The position numbers were made by a program, and so were the translations under genes. DNA of 64,000 nt, taken from assembly GCF_014295415.1 (NCBI RefSeq), contig NZ_CP052909.1, positions 124,001 through 188,000 of the forward strand, written 5' to 3'. Numbering within the stretch: position 1 is the first letter of the stretch; each line of letters begins with the position of its first letter. This DNA comes from Constantimarinum furrinae (GTDB lineage: Bacteria; Bacteroidota; Bacteroidia; Flavobacteriales; Flavobacteriaceae). The notes under the pieces were generated by a model, which saw only the letters and a list, made by a program, of their open reading frames with translations, did not search any database and had not been told where the DNA came from. Shown here piece after piece: positions 6,014 through 27,466 of the stretch.

Positions 6014-6931
6014 TTAAGTTTTAAATACCTGGTTTATTTTCCGAACAAATCTTGGCCATAGTCGTCTTCTGTAAAATTGCTTCTTAAAAAAATCCCGGTG
6101 TTCCTTTAAAAACTGCCGGTCTCCTATTTTTTCAAATAAATAATTCCGGGCGTGCTCCAGAAACGGAAAATCAGCTTCCGGGGCAGCTTGCCTTAGGTGA
6201 TCTTCAATACGTTTCCAACTTTGAATACTGCTCTCCATCTTCTCCCGATTCTGGAAATTACTCACACCTTCGGTCTGCGGTGTTCTGTAATACACCATCC
6301 CCCTTTCCGGATGTAAAACCTCCTTCGCGTGAATAAGAATACGGGTAAAAAATTCGCCGTCCTGATTCACCAAAAGAGTTTCATCCCACAGACCCGCCTT
6401 ATCGATAAGGTCACGGGAGACCAGATAAGCATGACATGGAAAAAAAGAGGCTTTTTTATCGAAGGCCTTCAGCAAATCGAGCCCGGTTGGGAAAGCCCGG
6501 TTAATATGAGATTGTTTTGGCGCAATTCCTTCCGTAGAACCGGTAAAACGATTCCACTTACAAGTGAATACGATCCCCTCATGATGGCTGTGCTGAAGCA
6601 ATTCGAGCTGTGCCGCCAGCTTATCTTCAGATAAAAGATCGTCGCTATCCAGCCAATTGATAAAGACACCTGTACTCTTTTCAAAACCTAAATTGCGACA
6701 GCTGTTAGCTCCTTTAGGGTAATCGTCGGGTCGCCGATAATAATAGAAACGGGCGTCCTTTTCGGTAAATTCTTCTACCACCTGTTTGGTGTTATCGGTA
6801 CTCCCATCGTCTACCACGATACATTCCCACTGTTTATACGATTGCTTTAACACCGAAGTAAGGGTTTCCTTGATAAGGTGACCCCGGTCGTAGGCAGGTA
6901 TGATAATGGAAATAAGCGGGCTGGTATCCAT
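6014..6931 (-). CDS. GT2-family glycosyltransferase (paralogue of 3827-4825)
   Basis: 305 residues. GT2 signatures ISIIIPAYDRG, VVDDGSTDNT and DSDD (95-98). It shares KGANxCRNxGFEKSxG with the GT2 gene two positions downstream, including spacing to the DxD, which points to duplication and divergence inside this operon. The C-terminal region is basic (KKQFYRRRLW), which may favour membrane association. Starts at the ATG at 6931, 42 nt after the preceding gene. Confidence 0.92.
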   Translation of the reverse strand: MDTSPLISIIIPAYDRGHLIKETLTSVLKQSYKQWECIVVDDGSTDNTKQVVEEFTEKDARFYYYRRPDDYPKGANSCRNLGFEKSTGVFINWLDSDDLLSEDKLAAQLELLQHSHHEGIVFTCKWNRFTGSTEGIAPKQSHINRAFPTGLDLLKAFDKKASFFPCHAYLVSRDLIDKAGLWDETLLVNQDGEFFTRILIHAKEVLHPERGMVYYRTPQTEGVSNFQNREKMESSIQSWKRIEDHLRQAAPEADFPFLEHARNYLFEKIGDRQFLKEHRDFFKKQFYRRRLWPRFVRKINQVFKT

Positions 6932-20208: not shown

Positions 20209-21150
20209 CTATTTTTTAGATTCCAGCTCCTCTAATAGCACGTTTATTTCTTTAGTAAAAATTTCAGCACCTTTCGAGTTCATATGATCTTCATTTCCAA
20301 ACAATTCTGTTTCATACTCATATTTGGTCTCAAAATTCCAGATGTGAACCCGTTTGTGGCTCATGTATTTTTTGAAAATGCTGTTCCTGCGTTCCAGCTT
20401 TCGTTTGTTCATAGCTTGATTGTATAAATAATACTTAGGTGGGGACAGTAGAACAACATCAATATTACGCTTATTACATACCGTTATCAAGCTATCCAAT
20501 CTTTCAGAATTAAGATCGAAATACGCAATATGTTCATCGAAATGTCGACCATTTAAATAGGCGGTATGCGAACTTTTTTTTATTAACGAATCGTTGTAAT
20601 TTAAATTTGCAAAACGAGATTTGTTCAACCACTTATACGGATAACCAAACCTATTATATTCCTGCATTTCAGGGTTCAATATGGACTTAAAGAATTTTTT
20701 TGAATATTCTTTAAAGTTAGAAGTTAATAGAAAATGGTCTTTAAATGGTGGCTTGTCCTTATAATTATTTAGGTTATAGTATATATGGAATAAATGATTT
20801 TTGTTCCATTTATAGCCCCTGAAATCATCCAAAGTATGATAAGATACTTCTAAAATTACGGTATGTAATTCAGGGAAAGATTCAAAGTATCTATCGAAGA
20901 GTTTAAAATCTATATTTATTGCACTTTCCCCGTGAGCTAGCGGTGCAGATCTCATTGTTAAAAATTCAGGGTTTATCGCTCTGAAGTTTTGGGAAGAGCC
21001 TAAAATTAGTACCTCTATACTATCTGCATTGGAATCAATATAGTTCCTTTTTGCACTAAAAGTATTTTCTCTTAAAGAGATTTCTACAATTATCCCTAAA
21101 ATAAGTATTGGAGTGAAAAATAATATTGTTTTAATCACAAACTTTTTCAT
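20209..21150 (-). CDS. Membrane-anchored SGNH-hydrolase-like protein
   Basis: 313 residues from the ATG at 21150 (KKFVIK start). A TTG 27 nt further upstream is in frame but less likely. One N-terminal membrane span (about 4-23) is followed by an extracytoplasmic domain. VLILGSSQNFRAINPEFL (48-65) resembles SGNH block I with Ser in GSS, and EDHMNSKGAE (287-296) resembles block V with the Asp-x-x-His-like pair. VVLLSPPKYYLYN lies between. Related proteins (DltD/AlgX-like) take part in polysaccharide O-acetylation, but no partner acyltransferase such as an MBOAT is nearby, so the function is open. AT-rich like 14-18 kb. Confidence 0.7.
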   Translation of the reverse strand: MKKFVIKTILFFTPILILGIIVEISLRENTFSAKRNYIDSNADSIEVLILGSSQNFRAINPEFLTMRSAPLAHGESAINIDFKLFDRYFESFPELHTVILEVSYHTLDDFRGYKWNKNHLFHIYYNLNNYKDKPPFKDHFLLTSNFKEYSKKFFKSILNPEMQEYNRFGYPYKWLNKSRFANLNYNDSLIKKSSHTAYLNGRHFDEHIAYFDLNSERLDSLITVCNKRNIDVVLLSPPKYYLYNQAMNKRKLERRNSIFKKYMSHKRVHIWNFETKYEYETELFGNEDHMNSKGAEIFTKEINVLLEELESKK

Positions 21151-21177
21151 CTGAATAATTATCTCAGTTGCAATCAA

Positions 21178-21331
21178 AAAAATGAGGAAGCTTTCGCCTG
21201 GAGGAGATCACATACAACCATTTGACATCAGATTTGGAACTCAAGTACGGGTAGTTTTTAGCTTCGGGCTAAGATACTAATTCTCATAACAATTGGGAAT
21301 TATTGTTTGGCTATTGCGCGAATAGTTATTT
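21178..21331. other. Intergenic spacer before the repeat array
   Basis: First part of a 407-nt gene-free stretch (21178-21584). It would hold the minus-strand promoter of the SGNH-like gene, but no TAnnTTTG match is visible. A short stem TTAGC/GCTAA lies near 21258-21273. Nothing else is recognised before the tandem repeats start at 21332. Confidence 0.4.
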
Positions 21332-21431
21332 CTGAACCCTCCAACTGCAAACTGAACCCTCCGACTGCAAACTGAACCCTCCGACTGCAAACTGAACCCT
21401 CCGACTGCAAACTGAACCCTCCGACTGCAAA
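21332..21431. repeat. Tandem repeat, five 20-bp units
   Basis: Five contiguous head-to-tail copies of a 20-bp unit (ctgaaccctccgactgcaaa) at 21332, 21352, 21372, 21392 and 21412. Copy 1 differs by one base (ccaactg for ccgactg). A sixth copy begins (ctgaa) and then diverges into the palindrome at 21421-21541. The unit contains CCGACTGC, the same octamer that forms the left end of that palindrome, so the array looks like expansion of that end. There are no spacers, so it is not a CRISPR. Confidence 0.95.
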
Positions 21432-21541
21432 CTGAAGTTTGCAGCCACCTCCCTTTGACAAAAGGGAGGAGCTTAAATTTTAAAATTTAAATAGTAAGCT
21501 CCCCTCTTCAGACGAAGAGGGGTGGCTGCTGTAGCAGTCGG
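21421..21541. repeat. Large nested imperfect palindrome (REP-like)
   Basis: A 121-bp element with overall dyad symmetry centred near 21482. Outer arms CCGACTGC (21421-21428) and GCAGTCGG (21534-21541). Next arms GCAGCCACC.. (from 21441) and ..GGTGGCTGC (to 21529). Inner arms AGCTTA (21470-21475) and TAAGCT (21495-21500). At the centre is the 18-bp perfect palindrome 21473-21490. Each half can also form its own hairpins: CTGCAAACT/AGTTTGCAG (21425-21444), CCTCCCTTT/AAAGGGAGG (21448-21469) and CCCCTCTTC/GAAGAGGGG (21501-21522). It ends 44 nt before the DUF559 gene. Confidence 0.92.
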
Positions 21542-21584
21542 GGAGTTTGAAATTAATTATGTAATTTTAAAACCCCCGGGGCAA

Positions 21585-21950
21585 ATGCAGAAAAGGAGAT
21601 TACATACCAAAAAAGAATTACAAGAATACAGACGTGAGCTGCGCAGAACGCTCACCCCGGCCGAAGCTTTTTTATGGCGGCAGTTAAAAGGCAGAAAATT
21701 TAAAGGCCGGCGTTTTACAAGGCAGCACAGTATTGGACACTATATCGTAGATTTTTATTGTGCTTCCGAAAAACTGATCATCGAACTCGACGGAGAGGTG
21801 CACTTTAATGAAAAAGCAGCAGCATACGACGAAAAACGAACCCAGTATTTAAATTCACTTGGCTATACGGTTGTTCGTTTTGAAAACAGAATGGTATTTG
21901 ACTTTTTACCTTCGGTGTTTATGGAAATCGAAGCTAATTTTAAAGCATAA
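21585..21950 (+). CDS. DUF559 (VSR-like) endonuclease-domain protein
   Basis: 121 residues from the ATG at 21585. An in-frame GTG at 21522 lies inside the palindrome and is rejected. MQKRRLHTKKELQEYRRELR is followed by LTPAEAFLWRQLKGR, FTRQHSIGHYIVDFYC, LIIELDGEVHF and GYTVVRFENRMV, the DUF559 pattern. The family has a PD-(D/E)xK nuclease fold related to Vsr; the D-F-Y and E-L-D-G-E residues are the likely metal site. Biological role in Bacteroidetes is unknown to me. It is the only plus-strand gene between 1 and 28 kb, is directly preceded by the palindrome, and its stop is 5 nt from the convergent epimerase stop. It looks inserted in the glycan locus. Confidence 0.9.
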   Translation: MQKRRLHTKKELQEYRRELRRTLTPAEAFLWRQLKGRKFKGRRFTRQHSIGHYIVDFYCASEKLIIELDGEVHFNEKAAAYDEKRTQYLNSLGYTVVRFENRMVFDFLPSVFMEIEANFKA

Positions 21951-24991: not shown

Positions 24992-27466
24992 TTATCTCTT
25001 TTTCTTAAATCGCCGTTTTAACTTTTCCAGGAACGTTGGTTTCTTTGCATTTTCGTGATATCCGTTAGCATAATTTCCATATCCGTAACCATATCCGTAC
25101 CCATAACCGTAACCATATCCATAGCCGTAACCGTATTTGGCTTTTTCCTCATAGAAATTGAGTACAAAACTAACATTTGTTATCTCTTTTGTCTTATATT
25201 TTTCGTTAATAAGTGCTAACATTCCCTTTTTTGTATAATTCTGTCGAATCATATAAATGGTCGCATCTGCATATTTAACGAGTTCCAGCGAATCTGCCAC
25301 CAATCCAAGCGGCGGGGAATCCAGAATAATATAGTCATATCGTTCCTTCAGCTTCTCAATGAGCTCTTCCATTCGGTCGCCCATTAATAATTCCGAAGGA
25401 TTTGGCGGAACGGGACCCGAGGTAATGATATCCAGATGATCTACCCGTGTTTTTTGAATCACATCATCCAGAGTAGCATCATTAATGAGATAATTGACCA
25501 CTCCTTCCTTATTTTCAATATTGAAATCCCCAAAGATCTTGGGTTTTCGTAAATCCAGTCCTAACAAAATTGTTTTCTTTTCACTTAAAGCGAACACTGA
25601 TGCGATATTGATAGAGCAAAAGGTCTTTCCCTCGCCACTAACCGAAGAGGTGATCAACACCGTCTTTGCACCTTCTATACCTTGTTTTTTATAAATGAAT
25701 TGCAGGCTGGAACGTATGGCACGAAAGGATTCGGCCACAGATGATTTTGGTTTATCTAATACTGCAATATTGGTTCCCAAATAGCTCTTTCCAATTGCCC
25801 CAAGAATCGGGATCTTTGAAAGACGTTCAATGTCTTTAATGGTGTTGATCTTGGTATCGAAGAACACCCTTAGAAAAACAAACACAAAAGGTATGACGAA
25901 TCCAAACAGACCTGCCATCATATAATTTAAGCGGGTATTAGGCCCCACCTTCCCGCCTCCGGTGTCTTTGGCAGAATCTATGACCAACACATCGCTCACA
26001 TTGGCTGCCTTCACCAGACGGGCTTCGCTAAGTTTTGATAGAAAGAGATTATACGTCGCCTGACTTAAATTATACCTTCTTTCAATTTTGAGTAATTCCT
26101 GTTGTTCCTTTGGCAATCTTCGTATTTCCGCTTCTTGTTGTGCAATATCCCGATTGATGGAATTCAGTTCCTGATTCTTTAATCCTTTGGTAGAAGAAAT
26201 ATTTTCAAGCAAGACATTTTTTACCGAATTGATCTGCCGGTCGAGATCTGCAAATACGGGAGCTCCTTCTTTATAGGAATACTCCAGATTCTTTCTATCC
26301 TCTGCCAGATCCACGATCCTTCCTACACCCGAAATGATACTTTGTTCTGAAATACCTGCTACCGAAGGTGCCGGAACTTCCCGGTAATCGGTACGGGTAA
26401 GTAGATAATTCTCCAGTACATTATAGTAGTTAATTTCACGATTAATCGATTCTTTCCGGAGATCGAGTACATTGAGTTTTTGATTGATCTCTTCTCCTTC
26501 ACGGTCCAGATCGAATATGGCATTCTTATCTTTAAACTGATTTAATTCGTCTTCAACATCAGACAATTCGATACCCTTCTCTTGCAGACTGCTGTCGATA
26601 AACTTTATGGTCTTGGTCGCAAAAAGGTTCTTACGTTCCAGCATATTCTCACTTAATACCGAAACCGAAGAGTTTAAAAAATCAACTAGTTTATTTTTAT
26701 TTTGGCCCACCAGACTAAGTCTTAACGCTGATGAACCCTTAGATTCGGGTTGAACAATTAGTCCAAAATACCGTTTAACGGCACTGTCAAAATTGGAAAA
26801 ACTGATATAATACAATTTGCCCGGAATTACCGGCACGTCGGGATAAGACACTAATGTACCACTAAAAAAGGGCAATGAGATACGTTCTCCTAACTGATAA
26901 TCCCTGCTAAATTCATTTGCTTCAAAATGACGTGAAATTATTTCTTTTCCTTTATTATAAAATTGCAAGCTACGATTCCCGCCTGTAAATTTGGTACTCA
27001 AGGTAAAGGTAGTGGTGTCCTTAAAAACAATGGTGATCTGTTGTCCCAGTACCTGAGGTCTGGTGGTATCTACTTCAACCAAAAAAGGCACTTTCTTATA
27101 GGCATCTATCTGCTGGTATTTGCCGTCTATTCTATAGTTAAGGTAATACTGTATTCGCTGCACCACTTCTTCGTTGTGCGAACGGGATTTTAAGGTAATA
27201 ATGGACGTATTTACCTTGTCTGTGGTTCCTCCCCAGTTGAAGGTAAGACTTGTATTGGTAGTAAAAAAGGGATTCTGATCATCTTTAATCGAGATCATAT
27301 TCTCCATTTTATAAACAGGCAACTTTCTTACATTAATATAATAAGCCACCCCAAATGCAATTGCTAGAGAAATGAGGAACAAAGGCCAGTGACTAAGGAG
27401 TTTAAAGAGAAAGCCTTTAAAATCGAAAGTAGTGTGAACTTCGGTTACATCAAATTCTTCACTCAT
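24992..27466 (-). CDS. wzc: Polysaccharide co-polymerase / BY-kinase, Wzc type
   Basis: 824 residues. A membrane span at about 30-48, a large periplasmic domain with coiled-coil stretches (about 290-490, ELNSINRDIAQQEAEIRRL), and a second span near 515-535. The cytoplasmic tyrosine kinase has Walker A SSVSGEGKT, Walker A' LLGLDLRKP and Walker B IILDSPPLG. It regulates chain length and export with the Wza channel upstream (5 nt). The tail holds ten consecutive Tyr-Gly pairs (residues 778-797, DNA 25076-25135) before a basic end, an extreme version of the tyrosine cluster that is autophosphorylated in this family. Confidence 0.95.
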   Translation of the reverse strand: MSEEFDVTEVHTTFDFKGFLFKLLSHWPLFLISLAIAFGVAYYINVRKLPVYKMENMISIKDDQNPFFTTNTSLTFNWGGTTDKVNTSIITLKSRSHNEEVVQRIQYYLNYRIDGKYQQIDAYKKVPFLVEVDTTRPQVLGQQITIVFKDTTTFTLSTKFTGGNRSLQFYNKGKEIISRHFEANEFSRDYQLGERISLPFFSGTLVSYPDVPVIPGKLYYISFSNFDSAVKRYFGLIVQPESKGSSALRLSLVGQNKNKLVDFLNSSVSVLSENMLERKNLFATKTIKFIDSSLQEKGIELSDVEDELNQFKDKNAIFDLDREGEEINQKLNVLDLRKESINREINYYNVLENYLLTRTDYREVPAPSVAGISEQSIISGVGRIVDLAEDRKNLEYSYKEGAPVFADLDRQINSVKNVLLENISSTKGLKNQELNSINRDIAQQEAEIRRLPKEQQELLKIERRYNLSQATYNLFLSKLSEARLVKAANVSDVLVIDSAKDTGGGKVGPNTRLNYMMAGLFGFVIPFVFVFLRVFFDTKINTIKDIERLSKIPILGAIGKSYLGTNIAVLDKPKSSVAESFRAIRSSLQFIYKKQGIEGAKTVLITSSVSGEGKTFCSINIASVFALSEKKTILLGLDLRKPKIFGDFNIENKEGVVNYLINDATLDDVIQKTRVDHLDIITSGPVPPNPSELLMGDRMEELIEKLKERYDYIILDSPPLGLVADSLELVKYADATIYMIRQNYTKKGMLALINEKYKTKEITNVSFVLNFYEEKAKYGYGYGYGYGYGYGYGYGYGNYANGYHENAKKPTFLEKLKRRFKKKR

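Follow-up and report, generated by a model that had tools for sequence, protein, structure and literature searches.

A DUF559 nuclease gene and its adjoining head-to-head hairpin pair in Constantimarinum furrinae as a probable selfish unit

The window analysed here is a 64,000-nucleotide stretch of the Constantimarinum furrinae genome. Between two minus-strand neighbours it holds a tandem array, two inverted half-elements and an intact gene for a DUF559 nuclease. The half-elements were scored with R1, a covariance model of 61 positions that was trained on 23 flavobacterial half-elements. The features are as follows:

20209-21177, minus strand: left neighbour, a 322-aa open reading frame (ORF) without a Pfam match, in a glycan-locus context
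21332-21436, plus strand: tandem array of the 20-bp unit CTGAACCCTCCGACTGCAAA, 5.2 copies, 98% matches
21411-21475, plus strand: half-element B, R1 match 4.2e-12 (itself an R1 training member)
21476-21494, no strand: AT-rich spacer of 19 bp separating half-elements B and A
21495-21551, minus strand: half-element A, inverted, R1 match 1.1e-10 (itself an R1 training member)
21585-21950, plus strand: DUF559 nuclease gene starting with ATG, 121 aa, intact, Pfam PF04480
21956-22933, minus strand: right neighbour, an NAD-dependent epimerase gene, convergent with DUF559

The DUF559 gene likely starts at ATG 21585, because the GTG start at 21522 falls inside the palindrome. Its stop codon is separated by 5 bp from that of the convergent epimerase gene. 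The preliminary description had called DUF559 the sole plus-strand gene in the first 28 kb and had placed it at the only large gene-free gap, and recounting bore this out. Between 704 and 28,263 (two plus-strand ORFs before 704 lie outside this count), it is the only plus-strand ORF of at least 90 aa without a longer overlapping minus-strand ORF. The stretch 21178-21584 (407 bp) is longer than any other of the 25 gaps that separate 26 main ORFs, chosen by hand from the ORF list. Elsewhere in the window, ORF 24992-27466 contains a short in-gene tandem repeat at 25077-25135, with periods of 6/12/18/24 bp.

The array unit is identical to the first 20 bp of the left half-element, consisting of its head, its tag and the first arm of its hairpin 1, so the array is made from the palindrome's own end, as had been proposed. 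In half-element B, a pyrimidine head (AACCCTCC) and the tag CGAC lead into hairpin 1 at 21425-21444, followed by CCACC, hairpin 2 (CCTCCCTTT-gaca-AAAGGGAGG, 21448-21469) and AGCT. Half-element A presents the order hairpin 2 (CCCCTCTTC-agac-GAAGAGGGG, 21501-21522), GTGG, hairpin 1, tag GTCG and head GGGGAGTTT. The nested hairpins of what had been described as a 121-bp palindrome were confirmed; they do not form one symmetrical unit, being a head-to-head pair of two half-elements that spans 21411-21551. The DNA fold of 21420-21600 has a free energy of -43.5 kcal/mol (z = -8.4), and none of 200 shuffles was equally stable.

An R1 scan of the whole genome that contains the window (2.99 Mb, one contig) found no dispersed copies of the pair: both R1 matches lie at the window pair, and there is one PF04480 match. 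The second genomic site of one hairpin-arm pattern is a plain terminator-like hairpin after a SusD-like gene (named by reading). As for a phage origin, 21430-21950 had no DNA match in 50,697 phage records. A search for defence systems with PADLOC returned weak matches only, the best being to a homing endonuclease profile (E 0.0012).

The window protein matches PF04480 with an E-value of 1e-33 (115.9 bits against a cut-off of 20.6), over profile positions 2-105 of 109. It carries all residues that are invariant in a 48-row alignment (R20, E27, W31, Q47, D56, F57, E67, D69, H73 and D82), and E27, D56, E67, D69, H73 and D82, which are of catalytic type, may be its catalytic residues. An AlphaFold model of the protein (pLDDT 91.3) was compared with solved structures using Foldseek. 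The nearest folds were those of 3hrl, which is endonuclease-like, comes from Neisseria and is similar in sequence as well (E 1.1e-21), and of the I-Bth0305I catalytic domain in 3r3p (3r3p_B, E 1.7e-4, TM 0.61/0.74). I-Bth0305I was reportedly described by Taylor in 2011 as an EDxHD homing endonuclease, and the predicted model thereby places the window protein with the EDxHD/Vsr-fold homing endonucleases. The Vsr profile itself (PF03852) has no match in the window genome. No transposase family was among the profile matches of the window gene, which is a DUF559 by Pfam and by fold.

The surroundings of DUF559 genes were compared at 110 loci. Thirty came from 120 Flavobacteriaceae genomes (the best match per genome, the window's included). 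The other 80, located by their similarity to the window protein, are on named contigs that represent many phyla. Perfect hairpins with a stem of at least 9 occurred at 3.5/kb within 150 bp of the gene, compared with 0.18/kb at 2.4-5 kb; for those with purine/pyrimidine arms the densities were 2.7/kb and 0.04/kb. A purine/pyrimidine-armed hairpin with a stem of at least 7 lay within 250 bp of the gene at 92 of the 110 loci (both sides 63, none 18) and in only 6 of 374 control windows from the same loci. When the three near-identical locus pairs (L030/L039, L089/L092, L108/L109) were merged, 91/107 loci had a hairpin on at least one side and 60/107 on both, counted with slightly looser code that gave 94/110 before merging. 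By one common measure for small nuclease families, hairpins were found at 23/30 DUF559 loci, 3/30 GIY-YIG loci and 0/27 Vsr loci, the weak Vsr locus L322 being excluded. At held-out loci (n = 73, the seven that supplied training sequences having been removed, which reduced 96 matches to 59), 46 of the 59 R1 matches were within 400 bp of the gene. Twenty-five of these loci were matched, Clostridia included, at a density of 0.81/kb near the gene versus 0.02/kb at 1.5-5 kb. We regard the association of hairpins with DUF559 genes as close to certain.

CGTC-tagged hairpins reached 1.08/kb near DUF559 versus 0.07/kb, while GTAG-tagged ones were barely enriched (0.09 versus 0.05). Tags GCTC and CCTC were enriched as much as CGTC, and CTGC and CGAC less; as GCTC and CCTC overlap the arm, the tag test is only partly independent. 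Tandem arrays with a period of at least 12 were located within 600 bp of 26/110 DUF559 genes (0.23/kb, versus 0.07-0.09/kb further out). Several of the gene-adjacent arrays are made of the element and others are not. In the hsdR gene of L067, which encodes a type I restriction subunit, the end of the insert is itself repeated as a 33-bp x3.9 array in the open frame, just as the element's end is in the window. The array in the window is therefore one example of a recurrent feature.

Intergenic DUF559 units of different genera were also seen to occupy the same kinds of place. By eye, and with names taken from translations, those of L017, L026 and L042 lie between the end of a DNA ligase gene and an Lhr-type helicase gene, and those of L019 and L020 beside an A2M-like gene.

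Half-elements beside the gene's relatives share an anatomy: an A-rich edge, a pyrimidine head (CCCTCC, CTCCCC, CCTTCC or CCACCCC), a CGTC tag, hairpin 1 of variable sequence, CACC and hairpin 2. The latter, whose 5' arm consists of pyrimidines and whose loop measures 3-6 nt, is followed mostly by AGC or AAC. The tag is CGAC in the window and CGTC in most aligned relatives. Base pairing is kept up through sequence change: across 23 aligned half-elements, 96.9% of 320 cells were paired, 95 were changed on both sides and one was G-U. All five counted pairs of hairpin 1 covary, though this hairpin was absent from the search criteria. G-U intermediates are usual in RNA helices. Their near-absence here rests mainly on hairpin 1, since the search required a perfect stem of at least 7 in hairpin 2, and suggests that the palindrome is maintained as DNA. 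We rejected a structured RNA, as there was no Rfam match at gathering score and just one of the 320 cells was G-U. On seven loci, Rfam gave only two matches, both to microRNA families and far below gathering scores.

How the half-elements are distributed among genomes was determined by scanning 120 Flavobacteriaceae genomes, one per genus, with R1 under strict filters. A set of 32 genomes with a stand-alone DUF559 was hand-picked from the PF04480 listing (two of them, G040 and G044, have a stop inside the match). Large in-frame fusions were excluded from this set, and weak PF04480 matches (profile about 66-108) that coincide with Vsr proteins were not counted as DUF559. R1 matches were found in 24 of the 120 genomes, namely in 19/32 with a stand-alone DUF559 and 5/88 without. 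At least two matches occurred in 18/32 versus 3/88 (Fisher 3.8e-10, in a test that ignores kinship) and at least six in 10/32 versus 1/88. Genomes with a stand-alone DUF559 held 172 of the 205 matches, and 13 of these 32 genomes had none. An earlier cut with a simple hairpin pattern gave at least two copies in 11/34 DUF559 genomes and 1/86 others. The five genomes with matches outside the stand-alone set were G013 (24, the only one with at least six), G104 (5), G087 (2), G024 (1) and G096 (1). In G013, DUF559 is present in two pieces with a stop (G013:C15:126978-127279), and it is possible that the repeats outlived their enzyme. We also observed two DUF559 genes with identical scores 1.4 kb apart in another genome (G073:C2:234561-236264), likely a tandem duplication.

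The arrangement of dispersed copies was followed in G095, which has 34 half-element matches, the most among the 120 genomes, and one DUF559 gene. By eye, 17 stretches at hairpin-pattern matches comprised 12 head-to-head pairs and five single or otherwise arranged elements, and one of the 17 contained the DUF559 gene. The window pair has the order and orientation of the 12 G095 pairs, whose spacers are longer. Another genome, G093, has 25 half-element matches, many of them with equal scores. R1 was also run on 15 named genomes that were chosen for having DUF559, six of which gave training sequences. Matches were found in 14 of them, including 130 in a MAG labelled Roseburia (G133), 36 in a Dokdonia genome (G126) and two in Alteriqipengyuania (G131), and none in G134. 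A simple hairpin pattern matched 12 of 18 genomes, with 1057 matches in a Gallionellaceae genome (G152) and 324 in an Oscillospiraceae genome (G166). Its reversed control gave none in either of these two and 1-7 matches each in 6 of the 18.

These comparisons bear on the proposals of the preliminary description about relatives of the window genome. Its suggestion that palindromes adjoin DUF559 genes elsewhere holds for most of the examined genes, in other genera and phyla, and the expected co-occurrence across genomes was found (18/32 versus 3/88 with at least two matches). Scatter independent of DUF559, which would have spoken against it, is ruled against by how much more often stand-alone-DUF559 genomes carry the palindromes. 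The likeness to REP elements and their RAYT protein was likewise upheld in relatives, where there are few gene copies and dispersed pairs, with the gene beside some of these.

DUF559 also occurs within larger reading frames. By Pfam, 18 open frames with DUF559 and other sequence comprised HsdR (5), leucyl-tRNA synthetase (3), MetH (2), HemD (2), and RecG, a type ISP enzyme, HisD and an aldolase (1 each), with DUF559 alone in two. The domain is at the N end in HemD and the aldolase and at the C end in HisD, and lies in frame inside leuS, hsdR, metH and recG. The Pfam layout places the leuS insert at the same position in three genomes (L219, L014 and L008). In Dokdonia G126 (L219:3045-6284, minus strand), the insert sits directly ahead of the leucyl-tRNA synthetase motif VFTTRPDTIFG, which belongs to the editing domain.

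Presence at the Dokdonia leuS site is patchy, and it is at this site that an empty form was seen; in the set searched, the genera of the window genome and of G095 are each represented by a single genome. The site was readable in 16 of 18 genomes (G140 and G147 being the exceptions), with five occupied and 11 empty. Between the flanks, the occupied sites measured 418, 418, 418, 424 and 421 bp; the empty ones measured 28 bp in eight genomes and 48, 49 and 52 bp in three. The inserts exceed the 28-bp form by 390, 396 or 393 bp, each a multiple of three, and one open frame runs through leuS and insert. Inverted hairpins, CTAATCCCCC...GGGGGATTAG, form the ends of the inserts. G126 and G151 share 98.4% identity in the insert and 87.1 and 88.0% in the flanks. 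In the other nine pairs the inserts are the less similar part, at 71-76% compared with 80-86% for the flanks. This pattern fits one recent transfer and otherwise an old or repeated arrival. A gene-less Dokdonia element (L219:7284-7350) sits, by reading, within another direct repeat, which leaves its empty-site comparison not clean. Two more repeats on this contig, L219:8589-8660 and 6279-6423, recur at many sites in several genomes of Dokdonia.

A relative is present in E. coli K-12, where the annotation gives ycjD as DUF559. At a distance of 162 bp from this gene is a 41-bp hairpin repeat in a style like that of the half-elements (L323:1205-1245, between fabI and ycjD; by eye). Its perfect stem is shorter than 7 bp, so it fails the perfect-stem measure used for the 110 loci, and it differs from the half-element in having a short linker, TAA, in place of the CGTC hairpin 1. 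This repeat has places in 5375 of 5426 E. coli genomes, with a median of 17 per genome that has any and 20 in W3110. A near match of ycjD is found in 3365 of the 5426 and in none of the other 2061, so the repeats also occur without the gene. The ycjD locus was rejected as a clean empty-site case, as two strains without ycjD hold an efflux operon there. This repeat may correspond to BoxC. For BoxC, the accessible text of PMC2267715 gives a length of 56 bp and 32 known copies.

Among known systems, REP/RAYT (REPtron) is similar in that a nuclease gene present in few copies adjoins head-to-head palindrome pairs scattered over the genome, and in a tag tetranucleotide adjoining the hairpin. For the unit described here, dispersal is seen in relatives (G095, G093), and the window genome has two half-elements. 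The enzyme differs, being a DUF559 of Vsr/PD-(D/E)XK fold and not an HUH tyrosine transposase, and so does the half-element, with a tag that is CGTC-like instead of GTAG, two consecutive hairpins and a pyrimidine head. By enzyme class and tag the unit is thus outside REP/RAYT, yet by analogy it would be REP/RAYT-like in its working.

CGTC REPs, which include dRS3 and Rickettsia RPE-4/6, are said to lack a dedicated transposase (Di Nocera 2013, PMC3733652). In the accessible parts of that paper, they are single palindromes of 20-40 bp whose stems almost always begin with a paired A-T. The same parts describe a CGTC tag, a hairpin, a CCA/CACC tail, mostly head-to-head dimers, some copies inside genes and Bacteroidetes among the hosts, all as for the DUF559 half-element, and include no second hairpin with pyrimidine and purine arms, which the half-element has. 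Set against CGTC-1 to -4 (8-9 bp stem, A-T start, CCA tail), the half-element is alike in tag and tail and differs in the start of the stem, which places it outside these families. We also considered DUF559 as the enzyme of classical CGTC REPs. The pattern [CT]GTCATT[CG][CG] was not enriched beside DUF559 (0.093 versus 0.082/kb), so DUF559 is rejected, for now, in that role. Rickettsia palindromic elements inserted in reading frames, as cited in the accessible text of PMC3733652, are likewise palindromic DNA translated in frame inside conserved genes; the DUF559 insert differs in carrying a nuclease domain. EDxHD homing endonucleases such as I-Bth0305I share with DUF559 the fold, a patchy occurrence at a single site and, for one pair, a higher identity in the insert than in the flanks. 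These comparative signs of homing all come from Dokdonia leuS and none from the window gene. DUF559 differs in being free-standing or an in-frame extra protein domain with hairpin ends, and gene-less dispersed copies exist; nothing that pointed to an intron or intein was noticed. Among the titles and abstract openings listed from the accessible open-access literature, we found no description of DUF559 with palindromic repeats.

Our best reading is a selfish unit of REPtron-like or homing-like character in which a Vsr-fold nuclease takes the place of an HUH transposase. We consider it likely that the window contains one autonomous copy, consisting of a DUF559 (Vsr-fold, EDxHD-type) nuclease gene and its cognate head-to-head hairpin pair, spread by nuclease-driven copying. 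On this reading, the DUF559 protein would act on its own structured DNA and cut the palindrome. It would recognise the half-element (pyrimidine head, CGTC-type tag, hairpin 1, CACC, hairpin 2) as DNA, probably while this is extruded or single-stranded, and would nick or cut at the half-element or at a target. Host break repair may then copy the pair to new places, giving non-autonomous, REP/MITE-like copies, or the gene with its hairpin ends, giving autonomous, homing-like ones. Tandem arrays may be the product of repeated cutting and slippage at the element end.

The main rival to a nuclease that spreads its own hairpins is pure homing, in which a free or in-frame DUF559 homing nuclease copies itself into empty alleles and the hairpins merely travel with the insert to protect, terminate or buffer it, their dispersal being a side product of other enzymes. 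The nearest characterised fold (I-Bth0305I), the presence and absence of the insert in Dokdonia leuS with one insert shared at 98.4%, the common leuS position in L219, L014 and L008, and the naming of DUF559 as an EDxHD homing family in the accessible text of PMC9403480 are consistent with it. Pure homing leaves unexplained why dispersed pairs co-occur with DUF559 and why the half-element is conserved across phyla, held-out Firmicutes loci included; we think it unlikely, though an alternative of some weight.

It is improbable, in our view, that the palindromes form a repeat family of their own, mobilised by a RAYT or IS transposase, and that DUF559 genes settle beside them because the repeats offer safe sites or terminators. 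The hairpins on both sides in 63/110 loci, the high copy numbers found almost only with DUF559 and the scant enrichment of GTAG hairpins, the RAYT type, argue against it, even if E. coli genomes without a near match of ycjD carry repeats and five Flavobacteriaceae genomes have matches but no intact stand-alone DUF559. We give very little credence to a housekeeping role, in which DUF559 serves as a nuclease of repair (Vsr-like mismatch repair) or defence (restriction) and has no tie to palindromes, its pairing with them a by-product of gene-end terminators or shared intergenic space. Caulobacter VsrA carries DUF559, is linked to cytosine methylation and is proposed as a mismatch-repair protein in the accessible text of PMC12907096, as such a role would have it. 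Terminators or shared space would not account for 23/30 DUF559 loci with hairpins compared with 0/27 for Vsr and 3/30 for GIY-YIG, for hairpins upstream of the gene and at the ends of in-frame inserts, or for a half-element anatomy that is both complex and shared.

Taken beyond the window, the selfish-unit reading leads to a wider proposal that we favour by a little: DUF559 may represent a third kind of REP system, in which cross-phylum, Vsr-fold, palindrome-specific nucleases mobilise their own nested hairpins in three forms: gene-plus-pair units, dispersed pairs that lack the gene, and in-frame inserts translated within leuS and other essential genes. The window unit would then be one copy of a cross-phylum nuclease-palindrome unit and more than a local curiosity. 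Bacterial genomes commonly contain short palindromic repeats, many families of which have no known enzyme. For the CGTC repeats, the accessible text of Di Nocera 2013 (PMC3733652) treats the absence of a dedicated transposase as an open question. That question can be put to a direct test, since a nuclease from another superfamily accompanies such repeats across phyla and has a relative next to a repeat in E. coli K-12. If true, the proposal would assign an enzyme to a large group of palindromic repeats that are orphans in bacteria, with the E. coli BoxC next to ycjD perhaps among them. It would also reveal a mobile element that persists within essential genes in the form of a translated domain and apparently is not spliced out.
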